Assembly (NCBI RefSeq): GCF_000710615.1
Contig: NZ_JDTH01000002.1
Coordinates: forward strand, 1,542,082 to 1,606,081
Direction: 5' to 3'
DNA length: 64,000 bases
DNA from: Haladaptatus cibarius D43
GTDB lineage: Archaea; Halobacteriota; Halobacteria; Halobacteriales; Haladaptataceae
The stretch's first letter is position 1, and each line of letters begins with the position of its first letter. The notes under the pieces are model-generated. The model did no database searches. It had not been told where the DNA came from and worked only from the letters and a program-made list of their open reading frames with translations. Of the stretch, positions 46,145 to 50,346 are shown one piece after another. Position numbers and translations under genes: made by a program.

Positions 46145-46606
46145 TTACAACCCTTCCAGCGACCGCAACTTCTGTTCCACATCCGGCGGTGCCGCACTCG
46201 GCCCGTCACGAATCCGATGGTCGGGAACCAGAAGGGGCGCGGGATTCGCGTCCAAGGCAGTCCGGGCGAGTTCCAAATCCGCCTCCTCGGTGTGGTCGAG
46301 TCCGGATGTCATCCGGGTCAGGGTTTCGACGTTCACCTGTTCGCCGTAGGGAACGTTTCGCACCGCTTCGAGAACGCCTCGCTGGTCGGTGGGAAGCGTC
46401 AGTGCAACCTGCACGTCTTCGAAATCATCCTCGACACCTTCTAGATACGCGATGATTCTGTCGAGCACCGCGTGGTCTTCCTCGGCGTCGTCGTCCGCTT
46501 CGCGGGGGAACGTGACGCGTAAAACGCGACCGCTCGCCACCCCGATTTGCACGAACCGGCCCAGATAGGCCGATTCCTGCGCGTAGATCCCGGCATTCTC
46601 GTCCAT
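46145..46606 (-). CDS. MGMT/alkyltransferase-like protein lacking the active cysteine
   Basis: 153 aa from MDENAGIYAQESAYLG. The C-terminal MGMT DNA-binding domain is recognisable: RGVLEAVRNVPYGEQVNVETL (HTH), ARTALDANPAPLLVPDHRI. The family active site PCHR is PDHR here, with Asp129 replacing the methyl-acceptor Cys. It therefore cannot repair O6-alkylguanine by transfer and is analogous to alkyltransferase-like (ATL) proteins that only flag lesions. Function is inferred. Confidence 0.85.
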   Translation of the reverse strand: MDENAGIYAQESAYLGRFVQIGVASGRVLRVTFPREADDDAEEDHAVLDRIIAYLEGVEDDFEDVQVALTLPTDQRGVLEAVRNVPYGEQVNVETLTRMTSGLDHTEEADLELARTALDANPAPLLVPDHRIRDGPSAAPPDVEQKLRSLEGL

Positions 46607-46661
46607 ACCGGAGAAAACGCACGTCCGACTATTCAAGATTGGCGTCTCGTGGACACAAGTC

Positions 46662-46690
46662 TTATGTACAAACTAGTTCGTTAATGTACG
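46662..46690 (+). promoter_or_regulatory. Paired TGTAC boxes at the trpCBA promoter
   Basis: TTATGTAC (46662-46669) and TAATGTAC (46682-46689) lie exactly 20 bp apart, separated by the palindrome AACTAGTT. The first copy overlaps the TATA position (about 27 nt before ATG 46691) and the second abuts the start codon. TGTACA is the TRP-box word bound by TrpY in Methanothermobacter (established knowledge). A repressor here would block TATA access. Confidence 0.6.
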
Positions 46691-47449
46691 ATGATGGACG
46701 CAGAAGGCGAACTCGCACCCGCGGTGCAGTCCATACTTCGGGACGCGAGAAAACGAGACACACCCGACGAGCGCGTGTCGGTAGACGCGCGCTCGTTTTC
46801 CGACGCGATTGCACGCACGGAGTCGGTGGGCAAAATGCCGGTCGTCGCGGAAGTAAAGCCGACGAGTCCGACGACGGATGGCAACCGAACCGACGACCCA
46901 GTCGAACTGGCGAAAGAGATGGTCGAAGGCGGGGCAACCGCGTTGTCGGTGCTGACCGAACCGGAGCATTTCGGCGGGTCGGCCGAGAACCTGCGCCGGG
47001 TTCGTGAAGCCGTGGGCGTTCCGGTTCTCCGCAAGGATTTCGTCGTGGAGGAAGCGCAACTGGACGTGGTGGAAGCCGACCTCGTCCTGCTCATCGCGCG
47101 GTTCGTGGGTGACAACCTTTCGGAACTGGTCACAGCAGCAAGAGCGCGCGGCTTTCAGGTTCTCGTCGAGGTTCACACGCACCAGGAACTGGAAAAAGCG
47201 ATAGACGCGGGCGCAGACATCCTCGGCGTGAACAACCGCGACCTCGGCAAACTGGAAGTAAACCTCGACACCTTCGAGTCAGTTGTACCCGAAGTGCCGG
47301 ACGATATGACCTGCATCGCGGAAAGCGGAATCACGACGCCCGAGGACGCCCGACGAATGCGTGAGGCGGGCGCAGACGCTCTTCTCGTCGGGAGCGCGAT
47401 TATGGACGGCGACGTGGCCGAGAACACGCGGAGGTTGGTTTCCGCATGA
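46691..47449 (+). CDS. trpC: Indole-3-glycerol phosphate synthase
   Basis: 252 aa. TrpC barrel motifs are present: [11 protein letters not shown] (catalytic Lys), [60 protein letters not shown] and [13 protein letters not shown]. It converts CdRP to indole-3-glycerol phosphate. The leaderless start at 46691 fits the TATA spacing. The last four bases overlap the trpB start, so trpCBA is one operon. trpD/E/F/G are not in this window. Confidence 0.95.
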
Positions 47450-48705
47450 GCGACGCCGAGTTCGAAAAAGAAGGAAAATTCGGCGACTACGGCGGCCAGT
47501 ACGTCCCGGAAGTCCTCATGCCCGCCATCGAGGAACTTCAATCGGCCTACGAGCGATACGTCCTTGAAAACGAGGATGGCTTCATGGACGAGTTTCGTCG
47601 CCACCTCCGCGACTTCGGCGGGCGACCGACGCCCCTCCAGCGCGCCGACGCCCTGAGCGAGCGATACGACCGCGACATCTATCTGAAACGGGAAGACCTG
47701 CTCCACGGCGGGGCGCACAAGCTGAACAACGCGCTCGGACAGGTCTTGCTGGCGAAGTACATGGGCAAAGACCGAATCGTGGCTGAAACCGGCGCGGGCC
47801 AACACGGCACGGCAACCGCGATGGCCGCGACTTACCTCGGCATCGACTGCGAGGTGTACATGGGCCGCACCGACATCAACCGCCAGCGCCCGAACGTCTT
47901 CCGAATGCGAACCCACGACGCGGAAGTGAATCCCGTGGACGTTGGCTCGGGAACGCTCAAAGAGGCCATCAACGAGACGATGCGCGACTGGGCGACGAAC
48001 GTGGAGGACACCCACTACGTCATCGGGAGCGTCGTCGGCCCGCACCCCTTCCCGCAGATGGTTCGGGATTTTCAGGCGATCATCAGCAAGGAAGTGAGAG
48101 AACAGATTCAGGAACAGGCCGGACGATTGCCGGACAGTGTTGTGGCCTGCGCGGGCGGCGGGTCGAACACGATGGGCGCGTTCCACGAATTCGTCTCCGA
48201 CGAGAACGTGTCCCTGTTCGCAGTCGAAGCAGGTGGGTCGGGCCTGACGATTGAGGAGGACGAAGGACTCGCTCCGCACTCCGCGTCACTTTCGACGGGT
48301 GAAGACGGCGTGCTTCACGGCGCACGAACCAAACTGCTTCAGAGCAGAGACGGCCAAGTTCTCGAATCTCACAGCGTGAGCGCGGGATTGGACTACTCCG
48401 GCGTCGGCCCGGAACTCGCGCATCTCGCGGAAACCGGTCGCGTGACGCCCGTGAGCGTCGGCGATGACGCCGCGCTCAAAGCGTTCCACCGACTGTCGAA
48501 ATTGGAGGGAATTATCCCCGCGCTGGAATCGAGTCACGCGATTGCCTACGTAGAAGAAGCACGAAATTCGGACGAAGCCGACGACTTGGGCGACCTCGTC
48601 GTCGTCAACGTCTCTGGACGAGGGGACAAAGACCTCGATACGGTCATCGAGGAAAGCGAGAAGCGGGGCATCGACACCGCGCCGAGCATGGAGGTATTCA
48701 AATGA
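47446..48705 (+). CDS. trpB: Tryptophan synthase beta chain
   Basis: 419 aa, type 1 TrpB. The PLP lysine lies in [14 protein letters not shown], with [16 protein letters not shown] (catalytic Glu), [14 protein letters not shown] (phosphate loop) and [16 protein letters not shown]. It joins indole and serine in the alpha2beta2 complex with TrpA. It overlaps trpC and trpA by 4 nt on each side. Confidence 0.97.
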
Positions 48706-49520
48706 GCAATCAACAATCGGCCCTCGAATCCGCTTTCTCCGACGAACCGGCTTTGATTCCCTACGTCGTCGCTGGCGACCCGGATCCGGAATCGACGAAG
48801 GAATACGTCCGCGCCCTCGCGGAGGGTGGCGCGGACGTCATCGAACTCGGCCTACCGTTTTCGGAACCGATTGCGGACGGCCCGACGATTCAGAACGCCA
48901 TCCAGCGCGCGCTTTCCGGCGGGATGACGCCCGACAAATATCTCGACCTTGTGGCCGAGTTGGACGTGGATGTCCCAATCGTCTGCATGACCTACTACAA
49001 CCTCATCTACCAGTATGGTGAATCCGAGGGGGTCGAATCCTTCGTTTCCGCCGCCGGAGAGGCCGGGGTTTCGGGACTCATCGTCCCCGACCTCCCAGTC
49101 GAAGAAAGCGACCCGCTTCGGGAGGCCTGCGACGAACACGGCCTCGACCTCGTGTTCATCGTCGCGCCGACCACCACGGACGAGCGCGAGGCCAAAATTC
49201 TCTCGCAGGCGTCGGGATTCGTTTACGTGCAAGCCCGGATGGGAACCACCGGGGCGCAGGCCGACGTGAGCAGTGCAACCCACGACAGTCTCGGGCGACT
49301 CGCCGAAACTGACCTGCCGAAGGTGGTCGGTTTCGGCGTGAGCGAGGGCGACCACGCCAAAGAAATCATCTCGGCGGGCGCTTCCGGCGTCGTCGTCGGA
49401 AGCGCCCTCGTGGACATCATCGCCTCGGGCGAGAACGTCGCCGAACGCCTCGAATCGAAAGCCGCGGAACTCAAATCCGGGGCACGCAACGGGACACAGG
49501 AAGTACCGCAACCGGAATGA
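48702..49520 (+). CDS. trpA: Tryptophan synthase alpha chain
   Basis: 272 aa. Catalytic residues are in [20 protein letters not shown] (Glu and Asp), with [37 protein letters not shown] and [12 protein letters not shown] forming the barrel and phosphate site. It splits indole-3-glycerol phosphate into indole, channelled to TrpB, and glyceraldehyde 3-phosphate. It is the last gene of trpCBA; aroA' follows after 31 bp and may be read through. Confidence 0.97.
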
Positions 49521-49551: not shown

Positions 49552-50346
49552 ATGAACACTGGAATTGCAGCACGACTCGACCGCATCGGACGGGACGGAC
49601 GCTTCGTCATCGTTCCGATGGACCACGGCATTACACTGGGCGCAGTACGCGGCCTGAAAGACATCGAATCGACGATCGACGCAGTGACACGGGGCGGCGC
49701 GGACGCCGTTCTCACGCAAAAGGGAATCGCACCACGCGTCCATCCGAACAAAAACGATGCGGGCTACATCGTCCATCTAAATGCCTCCACATCTATCGGC
49801 CCGGACGCGAACGACAAACGAATGACCGGCACCGTCGAGGAAGCGATTCGGGCCGGTGCCGACGCCGTCTCTTTTCATATCAACGTCGGAAGCAACTACG
49901 AACCCAAGCAAATCACCGACCTCGCGGAAGTCTGTAGCAAGGCCGACAAGTTCGGCATGCCCGTCCTCGCCATGTCCTACGCCCGCGGCCCGGATATCGA
50001 TGCACACGACGCGGAAAACCTCGGCCACGCAGTACGACTCGCGGAAGAGGTCGGCGCGGATGTCGTGAAAACAGCCTACAGCGGCGATTCGGAGAGCTTC
50101 GAACACGTCGTGGAATCGACGCGCCTCCCCGTGGTGATTGCGGGCGGCGCGCCGGAAGGCGACGAAGCAACCCTCGATGCGGTTCGCGGCGCGATGGACG
50201 CGGGCGCGGCGGGCGTTTCTATCGGCCGCTCCGTCTTCCAGCACGACAATCCGGAAGCGATTGCACGCGCGGTTTCCGGCGTCGTTCACGACGATTTGTC
50301 CGCTGAAGACGCGCTTTCCGAAGTCGGCCTGTTGGCGAATGTGTAA
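49552..50346 (+). CDS. aroA': 2-amino-3,7-dideoxy-D-threo-hept-6-ulosonate synthase
   Basis: 264 aa from MNTGIAARLDRIGRDGR. A class I aldolase barrel of the DhnA/ADH-synthase family: VIVPMDHGITLGAVRGL, Lys in DAVLTQKGI, Tyr in AMSYARGPDID, and the Schiff-base lysine in DVVKTAYSGD. It forms ADH, the archaeal precursor of 3-dehydroquinate that replaces DAHP. The next gene encodes the following step. A fructose-bisphosphate aldolase is the less likely alternative for the family. Confidence 0.92.
   Translation: MNTGIAARLDRIGRDGRFVIVPMDHGITLGAVRGLKDIESTIDAVTRGGADAVLTQKGIAPRVHPNKNDAGYIVHLNASTSIGPDANDKRMTGTVEEAIRAGADAVSFHINVGSNYEPKQITDLAEVCSKADKFGMPVLAMSYARGPDIDAHDAENLGHAVRLAEEVGADVVKTAYSGDSESFEHVVESTRLPVVIAGGAPEGDEATLDAVRGAMDAGAAGVSIGRSVFQHDNPEAIARAVSGVVHDDLSAEDALSEVGLLANV

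Follow-up and report, generated by a model that had tools for sequence, protein, structure and literature searches.

A conserved 10-bp-phased array of TRP-box-like sites over haloarchaeal trp promoters as a putative tryptophan operator

The region upstream of trpC in Haladaptatus cibarius D43 contains two copies of an extended TGTAC word, TTATGTAC and TAATGTAC, and an earlier note on this DNA proposed that they might mediate a tryptophan-responsive control similar to that exerted by the repressor TrpY. In Methanothermobacter thermautotrophicus such control of the trpEGCFBAD operon by TrpY through TRP boxes is said to have been described by Xie and Reeve in 2005 and by Karr in 2008, and a summary is given in PMC6737238. 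This locus therefore raises the question of whether the two words belong to a genuine operator, and if so which regulator might occupy it. The window analysed here, a stretch of 64,000 nucleotides, encodes the following genes downstream of the two words:

46694..47449 (alternative start 46691), plus strand: trpC, indole-3-glycerol phosphate synthase (equivalog match to NF041303, 432 bits, cut-off 380; start aligned with relatives)
47446..48705, plus strand: trpB, tryptophan synthase beta (TIGR00263, 608 bits)
48702..49520, plus strand: trpA, tryptophan synthase alpha (TIGR00262, 265 bits)
49552..50346, plus strand: ADTH synthase, first step of the aromatic pathway (TIGR01949, 369 bits; 31-bp gap after trpA)

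The ADTH synthase gene probably belongs to the trpCBA operon as its last, fourth member; a trpCBA-OE1472F operon has been described in Halobacterium (PMC4162585). The closest named TrpC is that of H. litoreus, with 90% identity. The start of trpC reads ATGATG (46691-46696), while the closest relatives have ATAATG and a few other genera likewise show ATGATG. The upstream ATG at 46691 looks peculiar to H. cibarius within its genus, and the second ATG, at 46694, is the conserved start, from which promoter positions are numbered below. On its upstream side trpC is separated by an 84-bp intergenic region from a divergent gene (46145-46606, minus strand), which recovered no NCBIfam match at 1e-10 and whose product resembles DNA alkyltransferase-like (MGMT/ATL) proteins.

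Direct reading of the sequence from 46660 onward (tcttatgtacaaactagttcgttaatgtacgatgatgg) places the two words at 46662-46669 and 46682-46689, with their starts exactly 20 bp apart as originally proposed, and the first of them indeed overlaps the TATA box (46661..46666). The second had been thought to touch the start codon of trpC, but it ends at 46689, short of both the first ATG at 46691 and the relatives-aligned ATG at 46694. Within an array that repeats exactly every 10 bp, TGTACA (-29), nGTNCR (-19) and TGTACA (-9), the two words constitute boxes 1 and 3; the middle box, lying halfway between them, was previously overlooked. The elements of this promoter are:

46654..46659, plus strand: BRE-like element CACAAG (class consensus CGCAAG), -40 to -35; A-37 and A-36 invariant in 99 trpC promoters
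46661..46666, plus strand: TATA box CTTATG, -33 to -28; T-32 and G-28 invariant in 99 trpC promoters
46665..46670, plus strand: box 1, TGTACA, overlapping the TATA box; TGNNC[AG] in 94% of 99 sequences
46675..46680, plus strand: box 2, AGTTCG (class form [AC]GTNC[AG]); G-18 and C-15 invariant in 99/99
46685..46690, plus strand: box 3, TGTACG (class form TGTACA); G-8 invariant, C-5 in 97%
46695..46700, plus strand: possible box 4, TGGACG, over the start codon and in 10-bp register with boxes 1 to 3; C+6 in 92/99; tentative

A lone TGTAC word carries no weight in this context, because the word is frequent in the window (94 matches versus 48 expected from dinucleotide shuffles, about twofold), an excess that is probably a coding effect. 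The composite TWATGTAC-N12-TWATGTAC is present a single time in the window, where the shuffles predict 0.00, and an extended composite of both words has a single match in the 3.9-Mb genome, at trpC. With respect to the possible fourth box (class form TGRACG, +2 to +7), every one of the 86 Asn/Asp codons has C as its last base, but the background codon bias is already 0.89-0.92; this bias accounts for most of the signal over the start codon, and the box is no more than suggestive. A central palindrome, ACAAACTAGTTCGT, was also considered as the operator and rejected, as relatives do not retain it.

The earlier note had staked its proposal on the persistence of the boxes and their spacing in relatives, and upstream regions of trpC from about 100 haloarchaeal genomes (families f1-f5 and f7-f9; 99 sequences in the profile) retain both in every family sampled. 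When anchored on the start codon these regions align without gaps from -42 to +3, and G is found at -28, -18 and -8 in 100% of the sequences and C at -25, -15 and -5 in 95%, 100% and 97% respectively. The mean information content is 1.29 bits per base at -40..-1 versus about 0.1 at -250..-51; at similar depth the trpC promoter yields 1.37 bits per base, versus 0.35 for the trpY promoter from 30 genomes, which served as a control. Conservation extends to -4, its -40 to -30 portion corresponding to the BRE and TATA box. One relative (L056) with a diverged TATA box (ctcttg) still possesses the boxes TGTACA, CGTGCA and TGTACA. Given this conservation across relatives, a chance origin of the boxes is untenable. 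Thus, the array is real and deeply conserved, while its role as an operator is putative.

A comparable array is present in the second trp operon, trpDFEG, which is unlinked to trpCBA, has a conserved promoter of its own and whose gene families were confirmed. Alignment of 38 loci revealed boxes of the form TGTAC, TGTNCA, a degenerate AANNCR, [AC]GTNCA and TGTYC at relative positions 0, 10, 20, 30 and 40, with a C at 4, 14, 24, 34 and 44 that varies little or not at all; the central box, at position 20, retains only this C. Compared with the trpC array, that of trpD starts at a distance from the TATA box that is about 6 bp greater, and this difference in placement indicates that the array is separate from the core promoter. 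A common internal phase combined with a differing distance from the TATA box is what would be expected of a separate DNA-binding protein. In one Haladaptatus genome a second trpD-like copy (L120, G006:C5), on a contig other than that of the chromosomal copy, is preceded by a TGTAC word but lacks the conserved array. A triple-box scan of nine Haladaptatus genomes recovered no further member of the regulon, and nearly all of the non-trpC matches examined lay inside long ORFs.

The trp operons were also located in 30 other Halobacteriota genomes, including methanogens, and rows of three boxes were scored in the 500 bp upstream. The mean best array score was 11.4 at period 10, versus 4.9-5.8 at periods 7-9 and 11-14; period 15 gave 7.7, probably since it too accommodates boxes at a distance of 30 bp. 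Scores of at least 15 bits were attained by nine regions at period 10 and by none at periods 7-9 or 11-14, and 18 of the 32 trp upstream regions reached a shuffle p <= 0.02. Representative rows are TTATGTACATCATTGAGCATTGTTGTACATAAG (L305) and TTATGTACATTTTTGTACATTACAGAACATA (L308). A weak row of boxes was also observed near 12948 of L298 (family f14), upstream of a second trpB-like gene situated ahead of the trp operon; the TrpY of Methanothermobacter reportedly controls trpB2 as well.

The genome-wide search for a TrpY-like regulator that the earlier note had suggested recovered a full-length TrpY-family protein of 167 residues, the only one in the genome (G000:C1, near 153,077; L145:1195-1695). 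It matches the NCBIfam model TrpY_fam (NF053754) end to end with 241.7 bits (cut-off 180), and its C-terminal ACT domain (PF01842) scores just above the cut-off. Proteins of this family, which combine an HTH with an ACT domain, were found in 222/222 Halobacteria genomes searched, nearly always in single copy, and in 192/197 genomes drawn across the phylum Halobacteriota; because of this universality no correlation of presence and absence is possible within the class. In the genome studied here trpY adjoins neither trp operon, being located on a contig other than that of trpC and at about 0.6 Mb from trpD; no array was detected upstream of trpY in 30 haloarchaeal loci, and in methanogens its neighbors include no evident trp gene. 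Haloarchaeal homologs of TrpY have been mentioned in print but never studied (PMC6737238), and no description of the array was found in the literature searched, subscription journals lying outside its coverage. Membership in the family is by itself no proof of role, since the homolog in Thermococcus kodakarensis does not regulate trp (PMC6737238). In family f15 the array is absent upstream of the two trp operons tested (L325, L326), and the TrpY homologs of this family are altered at otherwise invariant positions of the HTH (R56K, T61A) and the ACT domain (Q125Y), affecting the DRRVVD and IRQ motifs. This comparison covers one clade and two operons, with a single genome (G259) common to the array and TrpY analyses, and gives a hint that loss of the array and changes in TrpY co-vary; possibly the regulator of this clade has changed or it recognizes a new target site.

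Taken together, the conserved boxes, the array at trpDFEG and the encoded TrpY-family protein support the proposal of a TrpY-like tryptophan control, in an enlarged form in which the two boxes become three or four, phased at 10 bp. We accordingly favor, with a probability of about 0.72, the reading that the array is the operator of a haloarchaeal tryptophan regulon, in which a TrpY-family protein would repress trpCBA and trpDFEG when tryptophan is plentiful; here we infer TrpY as the binder, tryptophan as the ligand and the cause of the response, cooperative filling of the sites, and repression rather than activation. The target would be a row of TRP-box-like sites with a GTNC core within TGTACA, all of which, given the exact 10-bp repeat, lie on one face of the helix. 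The HTH-ACT protein of the TrpY family, whose gene lies elsewhere in the genome, would bind plentiful tryptophan through its ACT domain and cooperatively occupy these boxes, such that its dimers might line the whole stretch between TATA box and start codon, excluding TBP/TFB and RNA polymerase. In this manner trpCBA, the aromatic-pathway gene behind it and trpDFEG could be repressed together. The published rise of both operons in Halobacterium upon omission of aromatic amino acids (PMC4162585) speaks for this reading and lends indirect support to tryptophan as the putative co-repressor. Repression is the simplest reading because the trpC boxes extend from within the TATA box as far as the start codon. 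The TrpY of Methanothermobacter is said to need further assembly on its TRP boxes to repress, a requirement that a phased row would suit. More speculatively, TrpY-family proteins might assemble into a phased filament along a ladder of boxes that has 10-bp steps and spans the entire promoter, constituting an ancient tryptophan switch of Halobacteriota with a register almost unchanged from methanogens to haloarchaea, and with the trpC ladder entering the coding sequence and constraining codon 2; we regard this extended version as somewhat less likely to hold than to fail.

That the array is instead the operator of another regulator, whether of the Lrp/FFRP type (for instance LrpA2, or Trh1) or of the TrmB type (for instance HAH_0923), appears unlikely to us, as the TGTACA box matches the TRP box of TrpY and the array and the TrpY family extend together across Halobacteriota. 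There are, nevertheless, published grounds for such candidates. In Halobacterium salinarum the absence of aromatic amino acids induces trpCBA-OE1472F and trpD1FE1G1, and thus each of the seven trp ORFs, as well as LrpA2, which is induced 14.9-fold and was suspected by the authors to be the regulator (PMC4162585); however, the sites predicted for haloarchaeal FFRP proteins are rich in AT (nAAn(1-5)TTn; PMC4177876), whereas the conserved trpC positions are GTNC cores. Likewise, a 2024 study of Haloarcula hispanica found its trp operons to depend on TrmB only indirectly, with no TrmB site at them, and invoked additional factors, suggesting HAH_0923 (PMC10817205). Activation in place of repression, with transcription raised when tryptophan is scarce, is a still less probable alternative. 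It finds a precedent in Tar (TK0271) of Thermococcus, an activator of trp, aro and tyr-phe operons that acts through TGGACA-N8-TGTCCA, the half-sites of which resemble the array boxes (PMC6737238); but Tar sites lie upstream of BRE/TATA, while the boxes described here overlap the TATA element and continue as far as the start codon, an arrangement that favors steric repression. Least probable of all is a strongly conserved core promoter (BRE, TATA and initiator) that has no dedicated regulator. Such a promoter would account for the conservation at -40 to -30, and the trpCBA promoter of Haloferax volcanii is called not tightly regulated (PMC13147458, citing Large 2007), a description that also counts against the favored TrpY-type control. 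Against it stand the extension of conservation to -4 with an exact 10-bp repeat, the similar trpD array at another distance from the TATA box, the retention of boxes in L056 despite its diverged TATA box and the low information content of the control promoter.

The favored TrpY-type control resembles the Methanothermobacter system in the presence of TGTACA boxes over a trp operon promoter and of a TrpY-family HTH-ACT protein in the genome. It differs in that the haloarchaeal trp genes are divided between two separate operons and in that trpY is neither beside trpC or trpD nor furnished with an array of its own. In Methanothermobacter trpY is reportedly divergent from the trp operon and autoregulated; this arrangement is a trait of one species and not required by the NCBIfam family. 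The boxes of the present arrays stand strictly at 10 bp, which may be a further difference. Like the proposed operator, Tar of Thermococcus kodakarensis uses TGNNCA half-sites at operons for aromatic amino acids, but as a single inverted pair 14 bp apart serving an activator, rather than as 10-bp boxes over and downstream of the TATA box; its homologs are reported in Thermococcales, inside aro operons (PMC6737238). With Lrp/FFRP proteins such as LrpA2, which responds to aromatic amino acid starvation, the candidate would share the character of a small archaeal amino-acid-responsive regulator.

In conclusion, the layout of the array is more regular than the earlier note saw, and TrpY-type tryptophan control is its most likely function. 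Haloarchaea are model archaea whose tryptophan-controlled genes serve as laboratory tools, and the present analysis names a candidate regulator of trp biosynthesis together with the exact bases to mutate. Control of the TrpY type would thereby extend from one methanogen to a phylum, and would offer a clean case of a helix-phased repressor array.
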